From a virus, in the IMG/VR virus record IMGVR_UViG_3300028374_000036, positions 1 through 33,979 of that record: a stretch of 33,979 bases of DNA, one strand, 5' to 3'. The position numbers and the translations under genes were made by a program. Positions 17,082-33,979 of this stretch are shown one piece after another. The notes beneath the pieces were generated by a model. It was not told where the DNA came from. It saw nothing but the letters and a program-made list of their open reading frames with translations, and did no database searches. How positions within the stretch are numbered: the stretch's first letter is position 1; each line of letters opens with the position of its first letter.

Positions 17082-17390
17082 CTATACTAGATTTTCAAGG
17101 TGGTCTTTAAGCTCACCCACATTGGCGATGATGGTTTCGTTCACGTCACCATCCACTAGCACCACAAAGGTCGGGATGCTGCGGACGCTGAACTGTGCAG
17201 CCAACGCACCTTCATCATCCACGTTGACCTTGTAAAAAGCCACGTCGTCACCAAAATCTTCCGACAAGGCTTCGAGCTTAGGCAAGGCGACCTTACAAGG
17301 TCCGCACCATTCGGCCCAGAAATCGATCACTACGATTCCTTCACTGTTGCCTACCATTTCTTCGTAATCAGATTGTGTCAATTCTTTCAT
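17082..17390 (-). CDS. trxA: Thioredoxin
   Basis: A 102-residue single-domain thioredoxin, close to the usual length of about 105. The redox-active WCGPC is at residues 28-32 after a VVIDFWAE strand, and the cis-proline is in SIPTF (Pro73). It is expected to reduce disulfides in the cytoplasm using the host thioredoxin reductase. In phages thioredoxins may also support ribonucleotide reductase or act as a polymerase processivity factor. The start overlaps the preceding gene by four bases (ATGA), so it is translationally coupled. There is no signal peptide. A complete, apparently active thioredoxin within tail genes, away from any nucleotide-metabolism gene in the window, is notable. The family assignment is secure. 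Confidence 0.96.
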   Translation of the reverse strand: MKELTQSDYEEMVGNSEGIVVIDFWAEWCGPCKVALPKLEALSEDFGDDVAFYKVNVDDEGALAAQFSVRSIPTFVVLVDGDVNETIIANVGELKDHLENLV

Positions 17391-17632
17391 AGGATCATTC
17401 CTTTGTCTAGGGTCTGGGGAAGGTCCGCTCGGTTTTTAAGTCCGAGGGTACGGCCATCCGGGGTTTCAAAGCATACGTGGGAAGCACGTCTAACGACTTC
17501 CAAATAAGGGTATTCCAAATGGTTAAGTACCGCGCCCCGCAAAACATCCTCTTGCCCTTTTTCGAGGTATTCATCGGGTAGATCAACACAGTCGTCAATC
17601 GTGAACGTCACCAAAGCTCGCGTCTGTTTCAT
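17387..17632 (-). CDS. Small protein of unknown function (81 aa)
   Basis: I chose ATG 17632 (MKQTRALVTFTIDD) because it overlaps the preceding SLOG gene's stop by four bases (ATGA). An upstream in-frame start at 17725 would overlap it by almost 100 bases and gives a low-quality leader. The protein is mixed alpha/beta with three short strands (ALVTFTIDD, YLEVVRRA, HVCFETPDG) and one helix (EDVLRGAVLNHLE). It lies between the SLOG and thioredoxin genes with four-base overlaps on both sides, so the three are one translational unit. I do not recognise the family. Confidence 0.7.
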   Translation of the reverse strand: MKQTRALVTFTIDDCVDLPDEYLEKGQEDVLRGAVLNHLEYPYLEVVRRASHVCFETPDGRTLGLKNRADLPQTLDKGMIL

Positions 17633-18066
17633 AAATCGTCTTCCGTGTAAAGGTTGGCCCGCCTCTTGATCCGACGCCGAGCCTTTTTGAAAGTGTCCAT
17701 AGTCCCGTTTGACCCTTGATAGCAAAAGGCCAAAAGCACATCCGCATCATCGGCAATCAAAGTGTTGCGCTCGAAATAGTTACTGTAGGCGAAAGGCCGA
17801 TACCGTGGGTCGTCTTTATCCAGCCAGTGCGCCGGTGGGTGTTCGATATAACCCATATCGTGCTGTTCGGCGTAATCTTTTGCCCAACCATCAACACCCA
17901 GAGGCTGACCGCCTGAGACGATCGTATCTACCGTAGGGTATTTTTCCAGATAAGACGTGATCGTGTCAAATACAAAATCACGATCGGGCCATTCTCGCGA
18001 ACCTACGACGCCCATAACTTTGGGTTCGGGAGCCGTGAAAAGATCATCAAAACTGATCTCGCTCAT
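17629..18066 (-). CDS. SLOG-superfamily protein (YspA / cpYpsA-related, DUF2493-like)
   Basis: The 145 residues carry the family's signatures in order: the first strand and glycine turn VMGVVGSREW (GSR at 22-24), the second strand and loop IVSGGQPLGVDGWA (SGG 51-53, GVD 57-59), then RNTLIADDADVLLAF (from Arg100), and GSNGTMDTFKKA (118-129). These form a Rossmann-like pocket in SLOG proteins. That superfamily binds or processes nucleotide-derived ligands and includes members in conflict systems. A phage copy could sense or cleave a nucleotide signal, but its ligand is not evident. It overlaps its neighbours by four bases on each side. A 15-residue acidic leader precedes the domain. The superfamily call is strong; the biochemical role is open. 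Confidence 0.86.
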   Translation of the reverse strand: MSEISFDDLFTAPEPKVMGVVGSREWPDRDFVFDTITSYLEKYPTVDTIVSGGQPLGVDGWAKDYAEQHDMGYIEHPPAHWLDKDDPRYRPFAYSNYFERNTLIADDADVLLAFCYQGSNGTMDTFKKARRRIKRRANLYTEDDL

Positions 18067-18650
18067 GTGATTTTACCCGTACCCAAACCGGTAGTGGGGT
18101 TGAAAGGGAAGACCGGGCTACCCACGACAGCGTTTGTAACCACCCCGGAAGCAAACCAAATAGCAATACCTTGGCCGAGTCCCGACGCAAGGTTAGCCGC
18201 TTTAGGCCCTACGATTCCGTAAGAGGTTAAGCCCGAATAGATAAAGCTCGTGGCCGCCGTAGGGTCCGCGTTAATCACAGCGCCAGTCTCACTGCCTACA
18301 GCAACACCAGCGACCGCAGTCTGAACAACCGCCGAGCTATTGATCACCTGAGCCGTACCAAACGCTACACCATTGGCTATCTTGGACTTGTCCGTTCCGG
18401 GTAATGCCGATGCCATGATGTTGGTGTCTAGGATCTGCATACCCGATAGCGGGTCCAGTGTCCATTTACCTGTACCCTCACCGGCACCCAGAGTCCCGAA
18501 AGCCTGAGCCTGTACGACCAAGGTCTGGACGAAATTCTGAATACCAATACCCACACCCGAAGCGAGGTTGGTCACAAAGGATCCAACCAAGCCTTGGGAG
18601 TTAAGCTGGGCTTGTATTGCGGGAGCTAACTGTAGGGCGGTAACAGGCAT
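18063..18650 (-). CDS. Gly/Ala/Val-rich protein with internal repeats, probable tail/baseplate-associated (195 aa)
   Basis: The sequence is low in charge and rich in Gly, Ala, Val, Ser and Thr. A unit recurs near residues 28, 89 and 153: NLASGVGIGIQNFVQTLVV, KIANGVAFGTAQVINSSAVV and NLASGLGQGIAIWFASGVV. These look like repeated amphipathic segments with small-residue packing, not classical membrane spans. The C-terminus is a Pro/Gly tail (NPTTGLGTGKIT). The start overlaps the stop of the acidic 135-residue gene by one base (TGATG), which couples it to that gene. Position just after the spike gene suggests a baseplate or spike-associated structural component. Family not recognised with certainty. 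Confidence 0.68.
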   Translation of the reverse strand: MPVTALQLAPAIQAQLNSQGLVGSFVTNLASGVGIGIQNFVQTLVVQAQAFGTLGAGEGTGKWTLDPLSGMQILDTNIMASALPGTDKSKIANGVAFGTAQVINSSAVVQTAVAGVAVGSETGAVINADPTAATSFIYSGLTSYGIVGPKAANLASGLGQGIAIWFASGVVTNAVVGSPVFPFNPTTGLGTGKIT

Positions 18651-19082: not shown

Positions 19083-19112
19083 TGTATACCACAAGAATAC
19101 CCTCACCGTCAA
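19083..19112 (-). promoter_or_regulatory. Candidate sigma70-like promoter upstream of the 135-aa gene
   Basis: In the 51-base gap after the spike gene the minus strand reads TTGACG (19107-19112), an 18-base spacer, then TATACA (19083-19088). This matches the -35 consensus at five of six positions and the -10 at four of six. The -35 element overlaps the spike stop codon, and the -10 lies 26 bases before the start codon. It could give separate expression of the block 16738-19057, which ends at the hairpin. Judged by eye only. Confidence 0.35.
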
Positions 19113-21274
19113 ACGGAAGGTACATTGACCAGAGGGTTCCCTGTCAACGGTAAGCCTGTGAGTGGATCAATATAAGGGCTAGGTCCGGGGGAGCCTCCCA
19201 CAACTGCCAGAGCGGCTGCCGCCGTACCTAGCGCGACCTTGCCTGTCACATTGACGGTGGGAGCTTGGATGTTGATTGCTGTGGACGCGGAAACATTTAC
19301 ATTAGCTCCCGTTAAAGAGATCGTGCCCGCACCCAACGTCACCGAATAGGTACCGCTTGAGGCTTGGAAAGTAAAGTTTCCAGTAGTCGGGCTTTGCCAT
19401 GAACACGTAAGGGGGCCGCCCGCCTGTACGGTCTTAGTGCCGGTTGAGGCATACGTAATGGTGTCCGTAGCTGGAGCGCCAAATGTCGTCTGGCGGTTGC
19501 CCGCAAGGATCTTGAGTTCCTCAGCATTCGCACTCGTGGTGCTGGGCTTGACGATGGTGGTGGTGCGCCCTTCGCCGATGCTATTGGACACATTCCCCTT
19601 GATCGTGTGGCTCTGGTTACTGAGGACGGTCAAAGCATCATCACCGGTACCGACGCTAGCCTCACGACCTTCGGAGGACACCTGTTTTTTCCCGTTGATC
19701 TCTTCGATATGGTCTTCGGTGGTGGAAAGGCCGAAGCTACCTTCAATGGCGAGGCCCACGTCCCCGGAAAGCTCACCGGTGATTGCCGAGCCATCCCGGT
19801 CGGAACCGGTGACCTTCACGCCGAGGCCACCTTTCGCAATGAGGTCTAGGGATCGACCCGTGGTGTCAATGGAGCCAAGCGTCCACTTGGCTCCACCGGT
19901 GGCAAATATGTCGAGCGAGGTATGGTCGTTTTTGTTCGCTCCGATCACTGCTTTGATAGACCCCTTCACATCGGCTTCGATAGATCGACCAGCACCGAGG
20001 TTGGATTTTTTCGACGTGGAAGCCGGGATCGAAAGGAAAACATGCCCTTCTTTATCGTGAGCAAGGAACAGTTCACCAAGCCCATCGGGACGGTTCATCC
20101 GATATAGGTGGGCCGCCACTAGCGACTTTTCTTTTTCACCCTGTTCGTTCTTGACCGGCTCCATACGAACACGTCCAGACGTGGACGAAGGCGAATCGAA
20201 AAGAACAGGTTTCAGGAGCTTACCATAGTTAGACCGGCCCCGTGCTGTATATGGGTTGTTCCCCACCACGGTACCGCTCACCTTTTCGATGAACGGGTTC
20301 CATTGGGGGTTGTCGCCAATCAAGTCCCCATCAAAGCCGTAGTGGTCCGGGAACGGTAGACGTTGGTCGGTAAACTCTTGAATCTCCACCCGATCTTCAG
20401 CATACACCTGAACGTCCGGGTCCGTCACGTCTGCAAGGTTTTCCGTCACGAGGGCAAGGCGCTCCCCGCTTTCCAAGGTGATGAAGGGGAGGCGGTTAAT
20501 GTCTGGCGGTATGTCGCCATCCTCGAAAATCAAACCAGCATCTACGAGGTGTTCGAACAGTAGAGTGCCCGGCTTGATACGACCGTCTTCCCCAAAAGTC
20601 ATATCCGAAGGCAACGTAAGAGCGCTCCGAGTGATACGGCCCGAACGACGCCGGGCGGCAGCCGTGGTAGCATAGGCGTCCAGAGTCGTTGTGATCAAAG
20701 ACTGGTCTTCGGTCCGCAACCACAACTCAGCACCACCACTGTTAAGTAGTCGGGCATCCCGATCCAGAATAAGCTCCGCACCCTTATCAGAAGCGCCGTA
20801 AATGTCTCCGGGATACAGCTTACGCATCTTGTGTCGGGTCGGACCATAGAGGCCCTGTAATTCCCTCTGAAGCGTTTCTAGAGGCTTGTCGATCCCTTCA
20901 GCGTTACGTTCAGCCACACCGAGGGGGTCGAAACCTAAAGCCGTCAGGTAGCCGTTCGGCAAATAGGCCAGAATATAAGGCTTGACTGCTTGATCAGTAT
21001 GGGCAGCAGAAAAACCACACACGACGACACTACCTTCTTCGGGCATCGCGCCGAGAAAACCACGCTTGGACCAGTAGCCGCTGGTGAGCGGGACCTCTTT
21101 TGCGGGAGGGGTCGCACCCTGTAGCCAGTGGATATCACAGACCATGTGCTCATAGTCCACCCGCTGGATCTCACCAAGGCGGAGGGCAAAACGCAAAGGA
21201 CCTTTATGTCCGAGCATTTTGCTTCGGAGTGGTCTTTCCCCAATAGGTGTTGGTGGTCCAAAACGTTTAGCCAT
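19109..21274 (-). CDS. Baseplate spike protein, gp5/gpV-like (OB domain plus beta-helix)
   Basis: At 721 residues this has the layout of a central spike. A basic N-terminus (MAKRFGPPTPIGERPLRSKM) leads into an OB-fold-like stretch at about residues 25-115 (LRFALRLGEIQRVDYEHMVC, VPLTSGYWSKRGFLGAMPEE, GSVVVCGFSA). The C-terminal part, from about 440, is repetitive short strands rich in Thr, Ser, Gly and Asn (VNVSASTAINIQAPTVNVTG), as in the trimeric beta-helix needle of T4 gp5 and P2 V proteins. No lysozyme domain is visible here; the neighbouring hub carries the murein-degrading domain instead. The middle third is an unassigned insert. The gene starts three bases after the 63-residue gene. The end (GNPLVNVPSV) is not an obvious PAAR-like tip. 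Role as spike is well supported by domain style and position. Confidence 0.78.
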   Translation of the reverse strand: MAKRFGPPTPIGERPLRSKMLGHKGPLRFALRLGEIQRVDYEHMVCDIHWLQGATPPAKEVPLTSGYWSKRGFLGAMPEEGSVVVCGFSAAHTDQAVKPYILAYLPNGYLTALGFDPLGVAERNAEGIDKPLETLQRELQGLYGPTRHKMRKLYPGDIYGASDKGAELILDRDARLLNSGGAELWLRTEDQSLITTTLDAYATTAAARRRSGRITRSALTLPSDMTFGEDGRIKPGTLLFEHLVDAGLIFEDGDIPPDINRLPFITLESGERLALVTENLADVTDPDVQVYAEDRVEIQEFTDQRLPFPDHYGFDGDLIGDNPQWNPFIEKVSGTVVGNNPYTARGRSNYGKLLKPVLFDSPSSTSGRVRMEPVKNEQGEKEKSLVAAHLYRMNRPDGLGELFLAHDKEGHVFLSIPASTSKKSNLGAGRSIEADVKGSIKAVIGANKNDHTSLDIFATGGAKWTLGSIDTTGRSLDLIAKGGLGVKVTGSDRDGSAITGELSGDVGLAIEGSFGLSTTEDHIEEINGKKQVSSEGREASVGTGDDALTVLSNQSHTIKGNVSNSIGEGRTTTIVKPSTTSANAEELKILAGNRQTTFGAPATDTITYASTGTKTVQAGGPLTCSWQSPTTGNFTFQASSGTYSVTLGAGTISLTGANVNVSASTAINIQAPTVNVTGKVALGTAAAALAVVGGSPGPSPYIDPLTGLPLTGNPLVNVPSV

Positions 21275-21277
21275 CGG

Positions 21278-21469
21278 TCAATATCTCCGCTTGTGTGGCC
21301 ATTGATTATGCTTACGTTGGTAAGGCTCTTGCGCAGCCTTGATCTTGCGCTCAAGCTCCTCCGCACCGCCGTCCTCTAGTGCTTTTGTCACCGCATCCGG
21401 GTCGAAAGAGTTTGGGTCAATATCTTCGAGGGCGCTTTTAGTCTTGGGGTCTGTAGTCCAAAGGCTCAT
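21278..21469 (-). CDS. Small protein between hub and spike genes (63 aa)
   Basis: ATG 21469 overlaps the hub stop by four bases (ATGA), and the gene ends three bases before the spike start. The N-terminal half is acidic (DPKTKSALEDIDPNSFDPDA), a helix follows (AVTKALEDGGAEELERKIKA), and the C-terminus is basic and aromatic (YQRKHNQWPHKRRY). It is probably a small hub or spike assembly factor, or a linker protein; no family was recognised. Tight coupling on both sides argues that it is real. Confidence 0.68.
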   Translation of the reverse strand: MSLWTTDPKTKSALEDIDPNSFDPDAVTKALEDGGAEELERKIKAAQEPYQRKHNQWPHKRRY

Positions 21470-24400
21470 TCGTCGTCATCCGTAGTGGGGTTAGGAGTAA
21501 GATTCGAAAGTGCGGATCCAGCATCTTCGATCGATTGTTCGGCGGTGTTCTTAGAATTCCTAAATTTTTCGCGGAGCTGCTCAACGGCTCCATCCTCGCG
21601 GAAAAGGCTGGACACGGTCTCACCACTGTCCAAGGCGTCCTTCACCTCTTTACGACTGAGGGGCGAGTCTACAAATTCCTTTTCCGAGGGGGTAGACGTC
21701 GGGATTGACGCGGCATCGGGCACCCGAGGAACCTGCTTTGTTTCACCGCGTAACTCAGCCTCACGGGTCTTACCTTTCTGAAATGCGCTCTGATACAAGT
21801 CCCGAAGGAACGTCGTGACGACCGGAATCACTGAGGGATCACGAGGTGGTTTAAGGTCGGACGGAAGCGCATTGATCCCTTGTGACCTGTTTTCTTGGAG
21901 TCGTTGTCCAAACAGTTCCAACTGTACACGGGCCTCATTCTCTTCCGAAGGGAGGCCCACCCGGTTAATTCTTTTGGAAGCCACCGGATCGTTCGCCTCA
22001 TCAATAAGGTTTGCGGCCTGTGCCGCCACACTATCCGCTGCTGATCCGCCTGCGGCACTGGCATCTTCGGTTTCTTCTTCGGTAGGCCCTGCCGGTTCTT
22101 TTTCAAGTGCTGTATTCCACACCCGGCTGGCCGCCTTTACACGGCTTGCGTACTCATCAACGCCCCAATTGACAGCTACTTCCTCACCCGCTTTATTGAT
22201 CTTCGTCTTACCCGGAGGGTAATTCGCCAACCAATGCTCCAACTGTTGGTCGGTCTGCCCCGCCGCCTCTTGACGGTTGTAGGCTTTCAGCGTACCCGGA
22301 CCGCCTTTCCAGAGGATGGCCTGTTTTCTGGGATCACCATTGTGGCGATCTTTGTATTCATCCTGATATTCTAGGAAATGTTGGATTGACAGTTCCGGGT
22401 TGCCCATGAAATCCGTATTCTTACGCCCATGATCGGCGGCGTTATCTTTTCCGATCTGCAACAAGCCCACGAATTGTGACAACGATTCGTTCCCATCTTT
22501 ATCCACATTTGTACGCCGGGCACTCGCATCACCGGCGCTTTCTGTGTGGATAAAGGCGAGGATCACTTCATCTGGGTAAGTCTCTTCGGAATAGCCCAAG
22601 CGTTCACGCACCGAACGGATTGTCCCCCGCCAACGCCCCACGTTACTGTTGTACGCAAAGGTACGGCCCCATTTACTTTGGGCCGTTGTGGGGGTTCGAG
22701 TCACTCCCGGCTGTTCACCGTTATAGCCCTCCCAATTCGAAGAGGTGCCTGTATCCCCAGAAGGTGTACCGGGACCTACCGAACCCTTGAAAGCGTCCGC
22801 AAGACGGGCCGCCTCGGTCTGGGCCATACCCGCAAGGTCTGCGGCCCCCAGACTAGGAGGACGCACTTCCGTAAGCATCCGCCCGTAGTTGTTGGGATCG
22901 ACCATAAAGTTCTTGTCTTTACTCGGATCTACCTTGTGTGCCGAAGCTGCTTGGTTGCTACGGTCTTCAGACTGGTTGGGGGTCGTGGTTCCTCCACGTT
23001 GGTGATCAGGCTCCATACTGAGTAGCCCTTCCGCCCGGATATCATCCTCTTGCTTGTCGAAAATGAAACCTTTCGAATTAAGTGAGACGCGGCGACCATA
23101 TTCATAAGTCCCCACAACCTCGTACCCACGTTCATCGGACACCGGGAAAGTCGTAGCGTTCACTTCTATTTTACGGCCTTCCTCATCAATGTCAATCTTG
23201 GGGTCCGCTTCGATATGCATGAGGGGTCCCCGATTACGCTTGCCATTGTCGTCGGAATCGTGGGGTGTGTCACGGTTCGGATCAACCATGTACATGTATT
23301 TGTTCGGCCCGTTGGTGCCAAACTGTGACCGGAGGTTCACGAGGTTGCGCATCAAGACCTCGGTATCGTCCGCTTTGGCTGCTTGATCCTCAAACGTCTC
23401 GACTTTGCCGTATTCGTCAAGGGCCTTTTCCGGGAAATAGGTCAGGATGACGTTGCGGTCCCCTTCGGGCGTACCCGACACCGGATCAATGTTACGCTTG
23501 TACATGTTCTGGGGGACAGTGCCCGGATCAGCAATATCGCCCGGTTGCGGCTCTTGATTTTCCGTTTCCCATCGACCGAAATCCCCGTAAAACTTCTGAC
23601 GCCGGGCCATCAAAGTGGCCTGTGTTGTACATCTGGACCCGTAAGAAAAGGTATGTGTCAGGGACTCGATGTAGTAATAGGCGTCACGGCCTTCGACATA
23701 CACCGGGTATCCCAACCGAAGCTCCGGGCGTAAAGGGATCGTCACGGTACCATTGTTGACCCGTGAGTTCTGGCGGTCGAGGACATCCACGAGGTAGTAG
23801 AACAAAGCCTTGGGACCGCCGTAAGCATCCCCACCAACGAATTCAGATGAAAAGCTACCGGGCTTCCACCCGAACTTTTGCACGAGGCGGTAGTCCACAT
23901 ACGTAGCTTTGGGTTGGATCTCGTCGCCCATTCCCACTTGCTGGCCCCGGAAACGAAAACCGGTCGCTTCGACAAATGTGGCGTCCGGGGGGTTTTCCGC
24001 GAAGTTCCACGAGATCACATCAAGGTCACGGATCCACGATACGGGATAATTGGGCCGCACGTCCATATTGTAGAATGGAGGCTTGAAGATCAACTCACCC
24101 GTCACGTCCATGAAGAACTCGTAACCGATGGCCTCCTTGACTTGGTTTGCTACATTGAGCTTGGTTTCGAACTCCGAGTTGGTCATCTCCATTGATTGCA
24201 TCTTGGAAAAGACCAACGCAAAGGGTGTGATATTGGCGAAGTCAATGTCCCCTTGTTTGAAAGCATCGAAAAAGGTGCCTTCATTTTTGGCGGCTTGACC
24301 CCTTTTGCCTTTCAGAAACTTTCTAGGGTTGATCGCGAAATCAAGAGCATCCCCCTGCAAAACTTCGCCGGTCGGACCGTACATTCGAAGGGAGTTAGCA

Positions 24401-25071
24401 ATACGGCCCCAACGCAAAGACCAATACGCCATTAAGCGACGGTTTTCTTCGGGGGAAGGTTCGGAACGTTCGTCTTGCCCCGTGAGGCTCAGGTTCCGCA
24501 TGTTCATCGAATCGCCGTACACGTTCCGAGCAAGCGAATACAGGACCGCGAAAGGGTTTTTCCGGGTGAAGACACTACCCTCCAAGTTGAATCGCTGTTG
24601 CTGGTCGTCTCGTGACGCCATCCAAGAAGGGTTGTGCGCAATCTGTTGGATCTCCCACCAATACAGAATATCGCTACACGAAAGGGATACGGTATGTTCA
24701 CCGGCGCTGTAAGATTCGTTGACCGACGTCACGATACCCCAGAACACAGGGTAAAACTGTGGCGCACCACCAACTGTGAAGTGGCCTTTCATGTAAATCT
24801 GGACTTCCATCATGGTCGTCAGAGTCAGCTTGCCGCCCACGTAAATATCGTCCAGATAATGTTCGGGGATATGGAGTTCGAGGGAAGCAGACCCGGAGCC
24901 GCCTTGCGTGCCGACGTTGACACTTACGGAAACCAGCATGGGTTGTAGATCAACACGGCGGTTGGGGTTCGAACCGCTAGGAAGGCTCAGTTCGCCGTTG
25001 ATATAGACCAGACAGTCCGGTGCAGTAGTAACTACTGGACGCCTGTTAGCCTTGTACGTACCTTGAAACAT
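21466..25071 (-). CDS. Baseplate hub protein (gp27/gpD-like) fused to an SLT-type lytic transglycosylase domain
   Basis: This 1201-residue protein joins two functions. Residues about 1-480 are beta-rich and hub-like (LVYINGELSLPSGS, SASLELHIPEHYLDDIYVGG, FWGIVTSVNESYSAGEHTVS, VSLSCSDILYWWEI, YYYIESLTHTFSYGSRCTTQ), the pattern of T4 gp27 and P2 D-like hub rings. A long charged, probably disordered linker follows (about 500-790). Residues about 815-975 form a lytic transglycosylase-like domain: VILAFIHTESAGD with Glu844 as the likely catalytic acid, then FVGLLQIGKDNAADHG and a later aromatic/Tyr segment. This would cut peptidoglycan during tail penetration. The last 220 residues are charged and disordered. 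A GGAG ribosome site precedes the ATG. In T4 the lysozyme is in gp5, so the fusion partner differs here. Confidence 0.86.
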   Translation of the reverse strand: MFQGTYKANRRPVVTTAPDCLVYINGELSLPSGSNPNRRVDLQPMLVSVSVNVGTQGGSGSASLELHIPEHYLDDIYVGGKLTLTTMMEVQIYMKGHFTVGGAPQFYPVFWGIVTSVNESYSAGEHTVSLSCSDILYWWEIQQIAHNPSWMASRDDQQQRFNLEGSVFTRKNPFAVLYSLARNVYGDSMNMRNLSLTGQDERSEPSPEENRRLMAYWSLRWGRIANSLRMYGPTGEVLQGDALDFAINPRKFLKGKRGQAAKNEGTFFDAFKQGDIDFANITPFALVFSKMQSMEMTNSEFETKLNVANQVKEAIGYEFFMDVTGELIFKPPFYNMDVRPNYPVSWIRDLDVISWNFAENPPDATFVEATGFRFRGQQVGMGDEIQPKATYVDYRLVQKFGWKPGSFSSEFVGGDAYGGPKALFYYLVDVLDRQNSRVNNGTVTIPLRPELRLGYPVYVEGRDAYYYIESLTHTFSYGSRCTTQATLMARRQKFYGDFGRWETENQEPQPGDIADPGTVPQNMYKRNIDPVSGTPEGDRNVILTYFPEKALDEYGKVETFEDQAAKADDTEVLMRNLVNLRSQFGTNGPNKYMYMVDPNRDTPHDSDDNGKRNRGPLMHIEADPKIDIDEEGRKIEVNATTFPVSDERGYEVVGTYEYGRRVSLNSKGFIFDKQEDDIRAEGLLSMEPDHQRGGTTTPNQSEDRSNQAASAHKVDPSKDKNFMVDPNNYGRMLTEVRPPSLGAADLAGMAQTEAARLADAFKGSVGPGTPSGDTGTSSNWEGYNGEQPGVTRTPTTAQSKWGRTFAYNSNVGRWRGTIRSVRERLGYSEETYPDEVILAFIHTESAGDASARRTNVDKDGNESLSQFVGLLQIGKDNAADHGRKNTDFMGNPELSIQHFLEYQDEYKDRHNGDPRKQAILWKGGPGTLKAYNRQEAAGQTDQQLEHWLANYPPGKTKINKAGEEVAVNWGVDEYASRVKAASRVWNTALEKEPAGPTEEETEDASAAGGSAADSVAAQAANLIDEANDPVASKRINRVGLPSEENEARVQLELFGQRLQENRSQGINALPSDLKPPRDPSVIPVVTTFLRDLYQSAFQKGKTREAELRGETKQVPRVPDAASIPTSTPSEKEFVDSPLSRKEVKDALDSGETVSSLFREDGAVEQLREKFRNSKNTAEQSIEDAGSALSNLTPNPTTDDDE

Positions 25072-25106
25072 GCTGCTCCACTCACTAAACTCAACCGTTC
25101 ATGTTC

Positions 25107-25130
25107 GTCTATACGGAGCAACATATAGAC
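25107..25130. repeat. Perfect inverted repeat upstream of the hub gene
   Basis: Two 7-base arms (GTCTATA / TATAGAC) flank a 10-base loop in the 62-base gap between the small membrane protein and the hub start. The stem is AT-rich, with no T-tract, so it is a weak terminator candidate. It could be an operator-like site, an RNase site or a small leader hairpin for the hub gene. Confidence 0.45.
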
Positions 25131-25133
25131 GCA

Positions 25134-25322
25134 TTATGTGATCGAGATCAGGTGAAGCTCGAAAGACGCCCACCCCAAAAACAGCACCAAAAAATAGAAC
25201 AGCACCTTGGAAAACGTGCTGTTAGGCCATGCTTTTCCTGCGATGAGAATGCCAGTTGATGCGGGGCCAAGGAGGGCGAGGGCGATTGATTCAATCAAGA
25301 GCAAGGCGGCTAACTGGTTAAT
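25134..25322 (-). CDS. Small membrane protein with two predicted transmembrane segments, start uncertain
   Basis: Past the cREC stop the frame reads about 62 residues with two hydrophobic stretches: AALLLIESIALALLGPASTG with the following ILIAG, and FSKVLFYFLVLFLGWASF with a short tail. There is no ATG after the cREC stop. Options are ATT 25322, overlapping the cREC stop with GGGA upstream; TTG 25304 or 25298 without a clear ribosome site; or ATG 25403, which overlaps the cREC gene by 86 bases. The coordinates given are the minimal reading with the ATT choice. Size and topology are compatible with a holin-like or other small phage membrane protein. It lies just ahead of the transglycosylase-bearing hub gene, but nothing else supports a lysis role. 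Confidence 0.45.
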   Translation of the reverse strand: MNQLAALLLIESIALALLGPASTGILIAGKAWPNSTFSKVLFYFLVLFLGWASFELHLISIT

Positions 25323-25617
25323 CGTTTTCCCGGTTGAAACGGATCCAATTATCCAACAACCCGCGAATGTTTTCCGCACCAACTGGATTTGCACTGTGGA
25401 CATTATAGCTTTGCGGAACGTAACCCTGCTCCACCAGCCATTTAGCACAGTCGTATCCAGTTGGCTCGTCTTCACCGAGGTCGTGGTCGAAGGAAATGTG
25501 TTCAGGCATCCCCCGTTCCTCGATAGTCGTTACAAACGCATTATAGGTACGAACCACCACCCAATCACGCTCGGTCTTAGGGCTGCGCTCGTCGTCGATG
25601 TAAAGGGCGTAGCTCAT
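25318..25617 (-). CDS. cREC: cyclic-phosphate-processing receiver-domain protein
   Basis: The 99 residues match the cREC family, a receiver-fold domain that lost its signalling role. LYIDDERSP (acidic DDER at 8-11) is followed by WVVVRTYN, then ISFDHDLGEDEPTGYDCAKW (SFDHDLG at 42-48, GYD at 54-56) and VHSANPVG (74-81) before a last helix. The family is predicted, mainly from genome context, to act on 2',3'-cyclic phosphate ends or related RNA products, with the Asp/His cluster as a metal-dependent active site. A cytoplasmic phage copy might repair or neutralise RNA ends made by host nucleases; this is inference. The ATG overlaps the preceding paralog's stop by four bases. Family identity is strong; substrate is not known. 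Confidence 0.84.
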   Translation of the reverse strand: MSYALYIDDERSPKTERDWVVVRTYNAFVTTIEERGMPEHISFDHDLGEDEPTGYDCAKWLVEQGYVPQSYNVHSANPVGAENIRGLLDNWIRFNREND

Positions 25618-26057
25618 GCGTCTTCCCGCTTTTGAAAGTCGTCAAACCAATCTTTGGAAGCTATATCATACAATACGCTGTGATAATAGGAAGCGACCCT
25701 TTTCAGGTAACACGACATTTCGTAAGGGTCCGCAGGGGGTTTACCTAGCATTTTCCCCAAACAATTCTTGGGGTTTATCAACTGAGCATCCCGCACATAG
25801 GACTTAGCCTCGTAGCCCCGTATCCCACCACTGCAAGGCATCACTTCAATGCTCCCTTTTCGATCCCCTACCAACATGCCCCGTTCGCTCGGACTGCGGG
25901 GGATACATTTACGGGTTATGTAAGTCAAAAGGAGTTGGACCCTATGATCGGAAGTAAACCGGATCATGCCGTTGCCTAGTTCCCTCCCTGAATGGACGGG
26001 AAACACCTCAACCACCCAATCGCAGGGTCTGATTTTCCCTTGCACTAGTAAAGGCAT
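25614..26057 (-). CDS. Tandem paralog 4 of a phage-specific family with C-terminal DPYE/YLK helix (147 aa)
   Basis: This is the fourth copy in the array, starting at an ATG that abuts the previous stop (TAAATG). The N-terminal half is beta-like (MPLLVQGKIRPCDWVVEVFP) and the middle holds a basic stretch and a GDRKGSIEV strand. The C-terminal helix carries the family signature DPYEMSCYLKRVASYYHSVL (from residue 110), then YDIASKDWFDDF. It is closest to copy 3 (shared YHSxLYDxxxKxW). Cysteines are frequent but not in a clear metal pattern. No known family or enzyme motif was seen. It overlaps the cREC start by four bases, so the two are probably co-translated. Confidence 0.75.
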   Translation of the reverse strand: MPLLVQGKIRPCDWVVEVFPVHSGRELGNGMIRFTSDHRVQLLLTYITRKCIPRSPSERGMLVGDRKGSIEVMPCSGGIRGYEAKSYVRDAQLINPKNCLGKMLGKPPADPYEMSCYLKRVASYYHSVLYDIASKDWFDDFQKREDA

Positions 26058-26486
26058 TTATTGATCCTCAGTCTCGCAATAGCGATCGTACCATTTTTTC
26101 ATCGAAAGATCGTACAGGTAAGAATGGTACCCTTTTGCAACCCGGCGAAGGTACTGCTTAACGGTATACGTGTCAAGATGATCTATACCGCCCGGAATCA
26201 CACCCATGATGCGTTCTTCCGTCGCATAGTGCCTATACACGCCCGAATGTGAAACGTAATGCACGCCGCTGAACCCACCCCCTCGGTATGGGGTGAAATG
26301 TAACGTACCCAACCTCGTGACGACGTGATCTTTATCCGTTATGAAATCATCAAAGCCGACAAACTGCAACAGGGTGAGTTCGACGATACGTGGGACGGGA
26401 TCACCCTCTTTGGGGATACACATGATGTAGACTTCGACGAGGAAATCATCTACTTGGACCTTCGACTTGTCGATGAGTATTGACAT
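26058..26486 (-). CDS. Tandem paralog 3 of the DPYE/YLK family (142 aa)
   Basis: The third copy starts one base after the stop of copy 2 (TGATATG). The N-terminus (KVQVDDFLVEVYIMCIP) aligns with the RxGDLxV strand of the other copies. The mid-region has RLGTLHFTPYRGGGFSGVHY. The C-terminal signature is diverged to LDTYTVKQYLRRVAKGYHSY (from residue 104), keeping the YL-[KR]-x-V helix and the Tyr-His-Ser-x-Leu-Tyr-Asp run shared with copy 4. The DPYE tetrad itself is lost. It ends in the acidic tail (CETEDQ) seen in the family. Function unknown. Confidence 0.73.
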   Translation of the reverse strand: MSILIDKSKVQVDDFLVEVYIMCIPKEGDPVPRIVELTLLQFVGFDDFITDKDHVVTRLGTLHFTPYRGGGFSGVHYVSHSGVYRHYATEERIMGVIPGGIDHLDTYTVKQYLRRVAKGYHSYLYDLSMKKWYDRYCETEDQ

Positions 26487-26487
26487 A

Positions 26488-26970
26488 TCAGATCTCCTCG
26501 TCCTCGTCCCAAATATCCCGAAGCATCAGCGTCATTTCTTCGATGAAAAACGGTCGGTACTGTTGGATCACTTGCTTGAGGTAAGACCGCACCTCATAAG
26601 GATCTGAGCATTCTAAAGTACCACACACGGTGCCCAAGATCAGTTCGGAATCAATGACCTCTAAAAACGACCACTTACTTTGGTCAGGGTGGGGGTAAAA
26701 TAAAGCACCGGCATAATCTTTTGCTTCGAAATATAACGAACCACGTTCGTCCGCCCGGATAAAGGTAAGCCCCTCTGTAGTCCCCAAGCCCACCCAAAAT
26801 GGGTGTGGATTGCCCAGAACAACCCCTTGGTAAATACCGACCGACACCTCACAGAACGGATAGACCTGCAAAGGGCTACCGATACTTTCTTCGACCTCTT
26901 CAAAGTCGATGGAATACCAGACGATCAAGTCGCCTTTGCGAAACCGTTCTTTTTTGCGGATCAGAGGCAT
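26488..26970 (-). CDS. Tandem paralog 2 of the DPYE/YLK family (160 aa)
   Basis: The second copy, and the longest, starts one base after the stop of copy 1. The N-terminus, FRKGDLIVWYSIDFEEVEES, defines the family's opening strand. The mid-region ADERGSLYFEAKDYAGALFY matches copy 1 (SMYCKASSYAGNRFY). The C-terminus reads ILGTVCGTLECSDPYEVRSY (DPYE at 123-126), then LKQVIQQYRPFF and an acidic end. Copies 1 and 2 share the LGxVCGxLxCxDPYE block and form a closer pair than 3 and 4. No catalytic motif or membrane segment was found. A small beta domain plus a helical tail is the simplest reading. Confidence 0.75.
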   Translation of the reverse strand: MPLIRKKERFRKGDLIVWYSIDFEEVEESIGSPLQVYPFCEVSVGIYQGVVLGNPHPFWVGLGTTEGLTFIRADERGSLYFEAKDYAGALFYPHPDQSKWSFLEVIDSELILGTVCGTLECSDPYEVRSYLKQVIQQYRPFFIEEMTLMLRDIWDEDEEI

Positions 26971-26971
26971 A

Positions 26972-27388
26972 TCACTCGTCCTCGCTACTCACAAGGCAAA
27001 GGGCTAATTGCATAATATCGTCTCGGAAGCGGGAACGGTACTTTTTGATCACTTGCTTGAGGTAGGCTTTCATCTCGTAAGGGTCGTCACAGTTCAGAGG
27101 CCCGCACACGGCCCCTAAAAGACTTTCACACCCCACTTGACTAAGCGCTCCCGTAGGTACGTAAAACCGATTACCGGCGTAACTGGACGCCTTGCAGTAC
27201 ATGCTAGCTTTCATGGCTATGAGGTGTCGGGTCTTTCCCGTGTCGGACAAGGTTTCCGACTTTTCATAGGTACCAAGGCGAAACATGAATGACGGCTCAA
27301 GCTCACCTTCCCAATGCTCATAGGTTGCAAACCCATACACAAGAAGTTCGCCGGGCCGGTAATGCTCTTTGGACAAGAGGAGGGGCAT
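26972..27388 (-). CDS. Tandem paralog 1 of the DPYE/YLK family (138 aa)
   Basis: The first copy transcribed has its ATG overlapping the stop of the 412-residue tube-initiator-like gene by one base (TAATG). The N-terminus YRPGELLVYGFATYEHWEGE is the family's opening strand. The C-terminal block is LLGAVCGPLNCDDPYEMKAY (DPYE at 102-105), followed by LKQVIKKYRSRFRDD. The tail (SSEDE) is acidic as in the others. Direct coupling to a structural gene suggests expression with the late tail genes, though the small acidic-tailed proteins do not look like virion scaffolds. Function unknown. Confidence 0.75.
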   Translation of the reverse strand: MPLLLSKEHYRPGELLVYGFATYEHWEGELEPSFMFRLGTYEKSETLSDTGKTRHLIAMKASMYCKASSYAGNRFYVPTGALSQVGCESLLGAVCGPLNCDDPYEMKAYLKQVIKKYRSRFRDDIMQLALCLVSSEDE

Positions 27389-28626
27389 TAAATGCTCTTC
27401 ATGGATTGTTCGAAACGGACGGTGAAAGCGAAATTGTAATCGAACGTGAACGGCTTGTCTTCGGATTGCGTGATCGAAAAAGAGTCGAAAGAACCCGTGT
27501 AAATAGTGCCGTCGTAAAAAATGGAGATCGCCCCCACAAGGGAGATCCTTTGTTGCGTGTTGTAAATGTAACCGTTGCTTCGGTACACTTGATAGAGGGA
27601 GAGGAACTGCTGGTAAGCGTAAGACCCCTTACGTGACCCTACAGCAAGACCGCCAGACCCTCGCCCTAGCTTGTCCTTATCGTTGACGTAGAAGGCTCCC
27701 ACTTGTCCAGTAGCTTGGATCTTGGGCATTTGTTCGCCCCAGTTTTCGATACTGAAGCCGTGACGCACTTTGTTTGCGTCGGATACGATATGTTCGTAGG
27801 TCCGGGAAAAGGTCGTAGGGTTGACGTACATAAACAGGGGCGGCATCTCCCGCATCCTAAGAGCTTGCTCCCGAAGGTAATCAAGGTCGTCGGCTACTTG
27901 CCGTTTACGGGCGTCTTTGATCTCGTGGTTGTCGGCAAAAGGGTCTTTGCGTTCACGACGATTAGGCCCTGTGATTGGGGTGTTCAAAGTAGCGATACGA
28001 CTGCGTGATTCACGGGACGACCGCTGGAAATCTTCGTACCGGTTCCGCATCCCACGCAAATACTCATCGGTGCGTTCGATTTGTTGCTCTTGACCGGCTG
28101 GAGTGCTTTCCGGCACTTCGACTTCAATGTACCGTGCGGCGCGCTGGAGATCGGTAACTTCCCTTCGGATCTCTGCTTTATCCTCAGCGCTCAGATTTTC
28201 ATCGTCCTCAAGCTGTTGGCGCAAGGCGTCAATTCGCTCCGCCCGTTCAGGACTCGTGGGGATGATGCGTGTGATGTTTCTGGCACCACCGGCTTGGGGC
28301 CGGAAACGCTCGGTCATGGTCGTGAGCGCCACATCCTGTTCCATTGGCGCATGGACTTTTTTCGTAGAGGTTTCGCCGGTGGGGAAATTGTCCGGGGGCA
28401 CCACTGAGATAAGCATCGGGATCAGCGGAGTTCGGGCATGAGCCACGGCTTGAACGGGGGAGGGGAACGCCCGGAAGTCATAGCCGTTACCCGACACCAA
28501 CCGGGCAAAGTCGCCCACCGTGGAGCGGGCTTTAGTGAATTTCGACGTTACCTTTGCCTCGGTGTCCGGGGTGATCGGCTCATCTAACAGGACCCGTAAT
28601 ACGTCTTGGTTTTCATTATCCGCCAT
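27388..28626 (-). CDS. Tail tube initiator-like / baseplate protein, larger paralog (412 aa)
   Basis: I chose ATG 28626 (MADNENQDVL), 10 bases after the upstream stop and preceded by AAGGGA. A longer in-frame reading would extend 95 residues back into the previous gene. Residues about 260-412 (MYVNPTTFSRTYEHI, GFSIENWGEQMPKIQATGQV, FYVN, AYQQFLSLYQVYRSNGYIYN, ISIFYDGTIYTGSF, FTFDYNFAFTV) align along their length with the 183-residue protein encoded just upstream. Ahead of that lies a long charged coiled-coil region (about 125-260). Two homologous tube-like proteins following the tape measure parallel T4 gp48 and gp54, which cap the baseplate and start the tube. The assignment rests on synteny and internal homology. 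Confidence 0.72.
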   Translation of the reverse strand: MADNENQDVLRVLLDEPITPDTEAKVTSKFTKARSTVGDFARLVSGNGYDFRAFPSPVQAVAHARTPLIPMLISVVPPDNFPTGETSTKKVHAPMEQDVALTTMTERFRPQAGGARNITRIIPTSPERAERIDALRQQLEDDENLSAEDKAEIRREVTDLQRAARYIEVEVPESTPAGQEQQIERTDEYLRGMRNRYEDFQRSSRESRSRIATLNTPITGPNRRERKDPFADNHEIKDARKRQVADDLDYLREQALRMREMPPLFMYVNPTTFSRTYEHIVSDANKVRHGFSIENWGEQMPKIQATGQVGAFYVNDKDKLGRGSGGLAVGSRKGSYAYQQFLSLYQVYRSNGYIYNTQQRISLVGAISIFYDGTIYTGSFDSFSITQSEDKPFTFDYNFAFTVRFEQSMKSI

Positions 28627-28636
28627 AGGGGTTCCC

Positions 28637-29188
28637 TTACACGAGCAAGCTGGTAACTTCCTTCTCCACTCGGAAAGAAAAATCCGCCGTGAATTGGAAC
28701 GGTGAAGAGGCGGTTTCGTTGATGTTAAGGCTTCGGAAAGACCCGTCGTAAATGCCACCTTCGAACATGAGGCGGATGCGGCCTCGGTACTGTACGTTGC
28801 CACGGGTATCGAAAACCAACCCGTTGTTGTGGAACAGTTCAACCAAGTGCTGAAATTTCTCGTAAGCGATCGTGTCCCGGCGATTTTGGACCGCCATCCC
28901 CGTGTCCACATTCACGAAACCACCGGAGGTCACGTCTGCCGATATCTCACTCATTTGATCCCCGAAATGCTGCTCTTGCCACCCACCTTTCGTCTGGAAC
29001 CGCTCAATGATCTTGGTATAGCTGAAGCTCAGTGAGGTGGGGTTGACGTGGAGGTACATCGCTTCGGGTAAAAGCAAGGACTCGTGGTCGATCGACAATA
29101 CCTGAAACAACAGAGGTATTTTCCCACGCTGGTCGTTTGGCCCGTTAAATGCGCTCGGCACAGAGGCAACTGGATATCCATTTGGCAT
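28637..29188 (-). CDS. Tail tube initiator-like / baseplate protein, smaller paralog (183 aa)
   Basis: Start ATG 29188 is preceded by AAGGGAG, 13 bases after the tape-measure stop. The domain runs from MYLHVNPTSLSFSYTKI (about residue 44), through WQEQHFGDQMSEISADVTSG and FVNVDTG, AYEKFQHLVELFHNNGLVFD and IRLMFEGGIYDGSFRSLNIN, to the closing beta pair (FQFTADFSFRV). Every landmark recurs in the next gene: VNPT, the G[DE]QM turn, FVN/FYVN, the NG turn, the G-x-I-Y-[DT]-G-S-F strand and the PF-x-F strand. Small, single-domain and just after the tape measure, it is the likely equivalent of T4 gp48 or gp54. The contractile-injection tube-protein family has a similar NPT opening. Confidence 0.72.
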   Translation of the reverse strand: MPNGYPVASVPSAFNGPNDQRGKIPLLFQVLSIDHESLLLPEAMYLHVNPTSLSFSYTKIIERFQTKGGWQEQHFGDQMSEISADVTSGGFVNVDTGMAVQNRRDTIAYEKFQHLVELFHNNGLVFDTRGNVQYRGRIRLMFEGGIYDGSFRSLNINETASSPFQFTADFSFRVEKEVTSLLV

Positions 29189-29201
29189 AGGTCAAACTCC
29201 C

Positions 29202-32200
29202 TTACGACGTAGAACGCTTCCGCTCCCATTCTTCGATCACTTTCAGGATGGATTCGCGGATTTTTGAAACGTCGCCACCGTAAATGTTGAAGTTTGCGTG
29301 CATCGTATTACCGCCCCCAGCACCACCGCCCCCACCCTTTCCTCCAGCGCTTTTGCGGATAAGGTCTGGCACATAGTCCCCTTTACCACCTGCCAAAGTG
29401 GTGGCAAGGGATTCCTGATCTACAATGATATCCCCTTCTTGGAGGTCCAAGAAAGGAATACCTGCCGTGACCATTTTCGCATCATAACCTTTTTTCGGTT
29501 TTACTTGTTTCGTTGATCCCGGTTGGACGCCATAGTGCTCCATGACCGTTTCCATCGCAATGCCGGTGCTTCCCTTTTTCTTTGCCGCCGCTAAGAAATC
29601 CTTATCTCCCGCTTTGTACTTTGAAACGAAATTCTGGGCTTCATCTTTTCTGTACCCGCCAACACGCATCAGTTCGTTGATCATCTCCGCATACCGCTGT
29701 TCATCAACAAACGTTTTTGCCCACTCTCGAAGAGTAGACTTATCAACCTTGATCCCGTCCTTTGCTAACGTCTGGTACGTATCATCGAGGATTTTTTTCT
29801 GTTGCGTTGCTGTGATGTTTCCTTTTTCGGCTTCCGCTTTGAGCTTCTCTTCTAGCTTGGTTCGGGCAACCCCATCTTTAGAAAGTTGCTCTACAAACTT
29901 TTTAAGCTCTACGGGATCTTTAATGACTTTTCCGTCATGGACTGCCGATTTGAGCTTCCCGTAATCAGCACTTTCCATACCCTGAAAGTTTTCAAGGTTA
30001 GGACTTCCCTCATACCGGAAATGCTTTCCACCGAGTTTCCCGCTGGCCTTGGCTTGTTGCTCCCCCGCGAACTTCACATCTTCGTATTCATCAACCGAAC
30101 TTACCGTGGGGATGGCCTTTGCTTCAGCAACCTTTTTCTGGGCCTCTTTAGCTCCTTTCCCGGCAAGTTGCATTTCAATTTCTTCGAGATCTAGTTTCGC
30201 TGTTCTAATTTTTTCTTTATCGCCAGACTCCTTGGCTTTATCAAGGGTCTTTTCCCTTTTGTTGAGTTCATTTTTCAATTCCATTTCACGTCTTTGAGCC
30301 GCCACCCGTGCTCTTTCTTCGTCCGAACCGCCCCACGGAGTGCTGAGCAAAAAGTCGTAAATGCCCAGAAGGGTCTTGTACATCCCGGACACAAAATCAA
30401 GCAATTTATATTTTATCGTGTCGAGGATGGAGCGTTGCATCTCCGCCGACTTTTCAGCATGGGTCTTTTGCTTTTCTTGTTCCTCGATTATCTTGTCTTG
30501 CTTGTCTTTTGTCATGACCCCAAGAAGGTCGGTCCATTCATCGAGCTTACCGTTTTGAACCTCACTGAGTTCAACGCTATACCCCATTGACTCAGCGACC
30601 TTTTTGAATGATTCAGGATCATCCTCGTTTTCCTCAGCGGCTGCACGGAGGCGACTTAGATCCCCGCTAAGATCACTTTTCATTGCTTTCATCATACGAA
30701 GTTGGGCTTCGCTGACACCTTGACTTTCAGCCAATACAGAGTTCATATTTTCAAGAGGCATTCGGAGCTTGCCTTCGAGTTCCCCAATCTGCAAAGCGAT
30801 CTGGTCACCAAGAGCGAAGTCCATCGTAATGCCTTGCATCTCCATAACGCTATTACGGTTAGCTTCGAGGATCCCCCTGAATTTCCTAAGCTCTTCACCT
30901 GTAGCCGTGCCAGCGGCCTTACTCATATCATTGACCAAAGATTGCAACCGGTTCTTCTGGTCCGTAGAGAGCTTTTTCATTGCACCTTCGAAACCTAGTT
31001 CCTCGTATATGTCCCCTTGGCCGAGCTTCTTAAACGCCTTTTTCATTTCGTCAGTATCAAGCGCCTTTGCCAGTCTTTTCTGAGTGCGGTCAGCCATCTC
31101 ACCGACCTTACCCAACCCGTTGACAACCACCGTAGTAGAGCGTTCCAGTGCCGAAGCGTCTTTAAGGGCAGTTGAAAGCGAATTGGTAAACTCTTCGGCG
31201 CTCTTGGCGTCCATTACGTTCGACAGCTTACTGAACAAGGCCGCCGTATCTTCGATCCTGTAATTGAACAGGCCCATTTGAGGGATAAGGTCCGATACAA
31301 CGCTGAAAAGTTTTTTGGGCGCGACACCGGCTTCATGTGCAAACGAAATAACTTGGGTGAGTGACGCTTTTGCCTCCTCAAAGGATTCAGAGGATACGTC
31401 TGCCAACTTTCCGATCAAAGATGCTGTTTCGCTTGCGTCCACCCCGAGGTTCAAAGCGGCCACTTGTGCGGTTTCCAATGCGTCGACAGCGTCATGTCCC
31501 TGTGCCCGAAGGTCCCCCAACAACATCCCCTGTTCGTTAAGGGATTGCAGGGTGCTAGCCATATCCTCTTCTTTCATGCCAAGCATACGGAGATCAGCAT
31601 TGGTCATTACCGTATCCCGGAAATCTTGCATAGCCGATTCGGCGTCGGCTATCCGTTCACCCATGCTTGAGTATTGACTACTCGACATTTCGACCAATGA
31701 CACGTTCTTGAGCATTGATTTATTGACGTCCGCAATTTTTTGATCAAGGGCGAGGAACATCTTGACCAGTGCCGCAGCCGCACCCACAAATAAAGCGATA
31801 CCCCCAGCCATTTTCCCGAAGGTCTTTAGGAGTTTCATGAGTTTTTTGTTAGCTTTTCCGGCCCCTTTACCCCCCATCATCTCGGCGTCAAACGAACGTT
31901 TACGTGCTTGCTCACCGCCTTTTCTAACCCCACCCTTAACTGTGTCTGCGAAACCGGATATATTGCCTTGACGAAGCTGGTTGATTCCCCGGAGTCCCCC
32001 GCCCATTGCCTCTTTGCTCAATGAAGCAAGGGATTTCTTTTCCGTGTTGACAAGTTTATCGAATTCTTTTTTGTGCTCCTGAAACACTTTTCCGGTCTGT
32101 GCCGCTTCAAAATCAGCAGCCTTCTTGAGGTCCTCTAAACGTTCACGGGCCATTTTTTTTTGCTCTTCACTACCCGAAGCCATGACCTTTGACAGCTTGT

Positions 32201-33735: not shown

Positions 33736-33979
33736 TTACGGGGACTCATCATATTCAGCGGCCTTCACCCCATAAGTGGTAGTTTTTTGGTGGCAAGTCT
33801 CACACAAGGTACGTCCATTGGATAATTCCCAGAGGTCCGAACAGTTAAGGGCTTCATTTACGGTCTCAATGTTGTTCTTTTTTAGGATGTAGGCAAAAGG
33901 CACTATGTGGTCCGCATTGAGGTTTCTTCCGGTATTGTCTCCGCACTTCACACACGCATAGTCGTTTTTATCATACAGC
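33736..33979 (-). CDS. HNH endonuclease (5' end beyond window)
   Basis: The frame is open to the right edge. A GTG at 33951 could be read as a start, but it lies inside the motif, since the codons before it read YAC and continue upstream without a stop. The visible 80 residues hold a complete HNH core: CVKC (Cys 9 and 12 counting from the first full codon), NADHIVPFA (His24), WELSNGRTLCETCHQK (Asn54, Cys59, Cys62, His63). The two cysteine pairs bind a structural zinc and the His/Asn/His set coordinates the catalytic metal. Such genes in phages are homing endonucleases or packaging-associated nickases. Location beside tail genes favours a free-standing mobile homing type, but the missing N-terminus prevents certainty. 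The gene ends 17 bases before the pre-tape-measure gene. Confidence 0.84.
   Translation of the reverse strand, partial: LYDKNDYACVKCGDNTGRNLNADHIVPFAYILKKNNIETVNEALNCSDLWELSNGRTLCETCHQKTTTYGVKAAEYDESP

Follow-up and report, generated by a model that had tools for sequence, protein, structure and literature searches.

A rapidly diversifying, clade-specific family of tandem paralogs in a jumbo-phage tail operon

Background

What is the role of four small, adjacent and diverged paralogs that lie between the tail-tube-initiator-like genes and the baseplate hub gene of a jumbo-phage tail operon? When a set of genes expands and diverges amid conserved surroundings, it often marks the line of contact between virus and host. 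Should the array proteins be inhibitors, each array would document the host systems met by a jumbo-phage lineage and would offer candidate anti-defence proteins whose fold is undescribed; as tail parts, they would form an unusually plastic layer within an otherwise conserved machine.

Results and discussion

The tail operon and its array

The DNA analysed (the window) is a virus record of 33,979 bases, in which the large frames lie on the minus strand and read as a single tail operon with the following features:

1945-5370: Baseplate_J protein (PF04865, 2.7e-19)
19109-21274: spike-like protein, a member of the tail operon
21466..25071, minus strand: hub/tail protein with an SLT lysozyme-like domain (PF01464, 22.1 bits against a cut-off of 21.3), immediately behind the array and the cREC gene
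25318..25617, minus strand: cREC_REC gene of 99 aa that closes the array, with a predicted cyclic-phosphate-processing receiver domain (PF20274, 6e-29, 101 bits against a cut-off of 27)
25614..26057, minus strand: array copy 4 (W4), 147 aa, type 2, which pairs with copy 3
26058..26486, minus strand: array copy 3 (W3), 142 aa, type 2, which pairs with copy 4
26488..26970, minus strand: array copy 2 (W2), 160 aa, type 1, closest to the only copy of lineage L011 (phmmer 1.3e-20 to B1)
26972..27388, minus strand: array copy 1 (W1), 138 aa, type 1, homologous to copy 2 and to copies in lineages L011, L015, L034 and L035
27388..28626, minus strand: second tail-tube-initiator-like protein, immediately ahead of the array
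28637..29188, minus strand: first tail-tube-initiator-like protein, 183 aa
29202-32504: protein at the tape-measure position, 1100 aa

The 1100-residue protein owes its assignment to its size, its composition and its synteny with the gene annotated as tape measure in Tunturiibacter phage Tunturi_5, with no profile match behind it. The second tube-initiator-like protein, for which the start was set at MADNENQ, matches PF23980 weakly (0.002, under the cut-off) and is kept in about 30 related loci. Other minus-strand frames of the window include a thioredoxin gene in the tail operon (17082-17390; PF00085, 7e-25); a small HNH-endonuclease-like frame, perhaps of a homing endonuclease, that lies upstream of the tail genes and reaches the window edge (33736-33951; PF01844, 5e-5); and, after the spike gene, a gene for an internally repetitive protein (18063-18650), the window copy of which has no Pfam or PHROGs match and which is found in relatives too (L071 11444-12031 and L072 14970-15620; about 195-216 aa). 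The gap between the cREC and hub genes (25072-25317) could encode, on the minus strand and from a TTG start, a very small hydrophobic, membrane-like peptide; a hydrophobic frame also comes after cREC in the 437-kb relative described below, but not in L011 or L015. No short-period tandem DNA repeats were found at 25000-29500 of the window.

Homology and shared motifs of the four copies

The initial annotation had described four adjacent genes of 138, 160, 142 and 147 residues, and the coordinates and lengths proved exact, with all four genes on the minus strand. An all-against-all comparison bears out the homology claimed for them: each of the six pairs scores above all 1000 shuffles, with z values of 32 for copies 1 and 2, 19 for copies 3 and 4, 8.2 for 1 and 3, 7.2 for 1 and 4, 6.6 for 2 and 3, and 5.9 for 2 and 4, which rules out chance similarity. 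A protein search of the window record with copy 1 as the query recovers the other three (E 2e-15, 9e-4 and 3e-3).

The features put forward as hallmarks of the family fared unequally. The opening strand resembling R-x-G-D-L-x-V and the later G-x-[LI] strand are confirmed and are seen again in relatives, as is the C-terminal helix, in the form D-x-Y...YL[KR]xV...Y; DPYE, however, is not a fixed motif but one of several forms of D-x-Y (DPYE, DTYT, DTYA, DSYV, DPYV and DLYA), and copy 3, which was said to have lost it, carries an ordinary variant. The acidic tail does not hold as a family feature, being missing from most copies of the nearest five-copy array (L015); in window copies 1-3, the acidic C-terminal codons overlap the GAGGA-type Shine-Dalgarno stretch of the next gene (GAGGACGAGTGATATG, GAGGACGAGGAGATCTGATATG, GAGGATCAATAAATG). 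An MPL start is conserved in the array proteins of the window and its relatives (21 of 26 begin MP).

Distribution and copy number in related phages

Relatives were fetched with the hub and the 183-residue tube-initiator-like protein as queries. The phage of the window is represented by two further, near-identical contigs (115 and 41 kb; 99.98% identical, differing by just 4-11 bases), and the family occupies the same slot in four further lineages: one copy in L011/L010, five in L015/L013, about seven in L034 (a 125-kb contig) and about nine in L035 (a 437-kb contig). A type-1 copy is present in all five array-bearing lineages, and the further copies vary in number and sequence among phages. 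The two highest counts are approximate, because sequence does not prove the membership of D2, D4, D7 and E3-E5 taken singly: ten core copies together with D1, D3 and E1 are linked by significant profile scores, strict profile iteration adding only these three to the core, and the remaining array genes of L034 and L035 were assigned by position, length, start motif, a group-level excess in score, some pairwise links (D5/D6 to the core, hhalign 88%; D6 to D9, 2.5e-5) and the structural model of D9. As a group, the individually weak copies of these two lineages far outscore 3487 background sequences (Mann-Whitney p ~1e-19).

The slot is empty in 25 further loci that have the same pair of tube-initiator-like genes (a few of these loci being the same phage assembled twice); there the hub gene comes directly next, with a gap of at most about 110 bases. 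The array is therefore specific to one clade, in which it expands and contracts. Two array-less loci were obtained when bacterial genomes were scanned with the tube-initiator-like protein; scans of viral contigs with single, paired or grouped copies gave no additional lineages, and tblastn with C5, W2 and D10 as queries found no homologues in isolated phages at E <= 1. Profile searches of whole records, including contigs of 115, 96 and 57 kb, found the family nowhere beyond the slot, except in the 437-kb phage, where an additional copy lies 126 kb from the array (G006:C1:293286-293663; L075 9287-9664, minus strand; E 1.3e-9).

The surroundings of this dispersed copy include two small neighbouring genes similar to each other in layout (L075 9728-10111 and 10009-10482), a putative lipoprotein gene and, on the opposite strand, a Ro60/TROVE RNA-binding gene (L075 11254-12912, plus strand; PF05731, 2e-41), which among the phages of the set was found in the 437-kb phage only. 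The 125-kb relative shows an apparent inversion at the slot: the hub gene and two unknown genes that come after the array lie on the strand opposite to it (L072 1745-9033, contig G005), and a repeat-rich stretch (~4220-5296) adjoins the hub.

This distribution bears on the main rival to the explanation favoured below, namely that the array proteins belong to the tail or baseplate as minor components, or serve as dedicated chaperones in the assembly of the neighbouring hub and tube initiator, with extra copies specialising for different parts of the tail tip. We consider such a tail role possible but rather unlikely. The fixed slot between the tube-initiator-like genes and the hub, the tight gene overlaps, the presence of type 1 in every array-bearing lineage and the absence of the family elsewhere in the 115-, 96- and 57-kb contigs would all suit it; yet 25 loci encode the same neighbouring proteins without the family, and one copy lies far from the tail operon. 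The occupant of a slot that holds one, four, five, about seven or about nine copies, and is empty in 25 loci, is therefore not a core tail part. An obligate hetero-oligomer, an explanation offered at the outset for the retention of several copies, is likewise disfavoured, because one relative has a single copy and the 25 related tail-operon loci have none.

Divergence, charge and phylogeny

Between phages, copies of the first type are 24-37% identical, as against 44-78% for the tube-initiator-like proteins, 52-68% for the hub and 42-59% for cREC; the array copies diverge about twice as much as their neighbours. Net charge ranges from -24 to +9 over all copies and from -14 to +9 inside one array, with W2 and the corresponding copies B1, C1, D1 and E1 the most acidic. 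Taken together with the varying number of copies per slot, this pattern looks like the selection for variety that had been suggested from the window alone. It also weighs against a tail role, in which the array proteins would be diverging much faster than the hub to which they must be fitted.

Neutral birth and death, by which recombination in the slot would yield spare copies that drift until lost, leaving the first copy alone functional, would account for the high divergence, the variable copy number and the existence of copies too diverged for single recognition by sequence. It is nevertheless very unlikely, being difficult to reconcile with the full-length open frames of all array copies and the start motif kept in most of them; moreover, the D9 group keeps the predicted fold and the weak copies stand as a group far above background, which is unexpected for decaying spares.

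The tree of the copies is weakly resolved. Copies 3 and 4 pair with good support (98/94), as first proposed, and copy 2 groups not with copy 1 but with the only copy of L011 (85/90), although the other proposed pair, copies 1 and 2, is not rejected (AU 0.12). To invoke two rounds of duplication within the lineage of the window phage is too simple: a single in-lineage clade of all four copies is rejected (AU 0.011), and the split into types (copies 1/2 and copies 3/4) therefore predates the window phage.

Predicted structure and family searches

In agreement with the first impression of an unrecognised family, no known family or fold was found for the array proteins in Pfam, PHROGs, NCBIfam, PADLOC, the PDB or BFVD. 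The four window copies have no match in Pfam or PHROGs at useful E-values; the six copies of L015 and L011 reach 0.027 at best against Pfam, under the cut-off; the 26 array genes yield nothing meaningful in NCBIfam (best 0.027) and no match in PADLOC, a library of defence rather than counter-defence proteins; and a search of PDB sequences with the family profile came back empty.

The AlphaFold2 model of W2 (13 homologues; mean pLDDT 81.6, pTM 0.79) has strands at residues 15-26, 35-51, 70-82, 90-92, 103-107 and 111-115, and helices at 124-137 and 139-159. The model of D9 (pLDDT 77.2, pTM 0.76), built from an alignment without any core sequence and independent of the W2 alignment, has its strands and C-terminal helical region in the same order. 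On the basis of the order of elements in these two models, the copies are predicted to have a fold in common, in which a beta meander precedes a C-terminal helical region. Foldseek gave no match at E <= 1e-3 for the W2 model (PDB, BFVD) or the D9 model (PDB), and thus no fold match to tail proteins, which counts against a tail role. Two matches are leads at noise level only: a BFVD match of the W2 model to a T4-like 'transcriptional regulator' (probability 0.95 but E 0.21 and TM 0.30), and matches of the D9 model to Sm/Lsm-like barrels (E ~1).

A cREC gene at the end of the array

The start of the cREC gene overlaps the end of copy 4. A cREC gene is found at the array end in four of the five lineages (the window, L011, L015 and L035) and is absent in L034, with its approximately seven copies; among 17 array-less relatives searched, many of the records being fragments, only Tunturi_5 has one, elsewhere in its genome. 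In PMC7824862, cREC is predicted to process cyclic phosphates of ADP-ribose or of RNA ends, in the setting of NAD+ and RNA-repair conflict systems.

The array proteins might accordingly work with cREC to repair RNA or to clear nucleotide signals, binding nucleic acids or nucleotides, with a different damaged RNA or signal for each copy. The adjacency of cREC in four lineages and its predicted role speak for this partnership, as do the position of the dispersed copy near the Ro60/TROVE gene and the noise-level Sm/Lsm-like matches of D9. We judge it improbable: L034 maintains its array with no cREC; TROVE is confined to the 437-kb phage and lies on the opposite strand; several type-1 copies are acidic (net -10 to -24), unlike nucleic-acid binders; and the fold matches are not significant.

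Further along the tail operon, the window encodes a YspA-type SLOG protein (17629-18066, minus strand; PF10686, 2.3e-10), and a similar protein is recognisable by eye in the contig of L034 (L072 16150-16653, plus strand). SLOG proteins are linked to nucleotide and NAD+ signals, and the YspA-type gene may be a second accessory conflict gene. The cREC and YspA/SLOG neighbours lend plausibility to a host-conflict setting, in which the array proteins may have an anti-defence role, though they are no proof of it.

Proposed diversification against host targets

We tentatively favour, ahead of the alternatives above, the explanation that the array is a rapidly diversifying, clade-specific tandem family of late accessory proteins in a jumbo-phage tail operon, diversified against host targets. 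An accessory rather than core-structural role is suggested by the absence of the family in relatives, its variable copy number and the dispersed copy; the tempo of divergence and the spread of charge suggest diversification against host targets, with array proteins that interact with a changing host rather than being fixed tail parts. Because the array genes are read together with the tail genes, their products would be made late, and may then either enter the virion and be delivered together with the DNA, or act upon the machinery of the host at a late stage of infection. Each copy would keep the scaffold but, with a changed surface, bind a host target of its own, for example a defence protein or a nuclease, and the adjacent cREC enzyme may share in this accessory function, removing a cyclic-phosphate signal or an RNA end.

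Counted in favour of host targets were the varying occupancy of the slot, the divergence, the charge range, the copy outside the tail operon, cREC in four of five lineages, the SLOG gene and the T4 precedents described below. Counted against them were the lack of a PADLOC match, the place in the tail operon beside the hub, which would suit a tail role too, the dependence of the cREC link on one clade, and the fact that, in the two longest arrays, most copies are linked to the family only collectively or by position. It is doubtful whether a more specific version applies, in which the family would be a diversifiable binding scaffold of new fold, each copy neutralising a different host defence, functionally coupled to a signal- or RNA-end-processing cREC.

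Comparison with known systems

The closest parallel in organisation is offered by the Salmonella jumbo phage SPN3US and its relatives, which possess paralog families A (PF12699) and B, the latter numbering from 2 to 20 (PMC5694885). As in those families, the number of paralogs in the present array varies strongly among related jumbo phages (1, 4, 5, ~7 and ~9), members occur in runs of adjacent genes and function is largely unknown. Unlike the array, which belongs to a tail operon and adjoins cREC, the SPN3US families consist of head proteins detected in virions (PMC5694885), and in the stretch inspected the SPN3US genes with B-family numbers (gp148-154) encode larger proteins of about 300-480 aa. 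Profile A6 found nothing in the whole SPN3US record, whereas it recovers all five copies in the contig of L015.

Phage T4 supplies two precedents for small proteins directed at the host. Its internal proteins, such as IPI, are small and highly variable with a compact fold of their own, and at least one of them is injected and inhibits a restriction enzyme of the host (PMC3012670); the array proteins are likewise small and highly variable with a predicted compact fold, but are encoded among tail genes, whereas the T4 proteins are packaged in the head via a capsid-targeting sequence. TifA of T4 is a small counter-defence gene that was multiplied by recombination under host pressure (PMC9391042). 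The array resembles that amplification in being a small gene multiplied, and differs from it in that the TifA copies are recent, identical and laboratory-made, whereas the array consists of old, diverged paralogs.

The array-closing gene is a clear member of cREC_REC (PF20274; PMC7824862), and the array proteins themselves are not cREC. The partners of cREC named in the available portion of that paper are RNA ligases and NAD+-processing systems, and a tail-operon array is not mentioned there. As a lineage-variable set of paralogs in a jumbo phage, the array is of an already known kind; what appear to be new, within the databases searched, are the protein family, the fold predicted for it, the slot that it occupies in the tail operon and its association with cREC.
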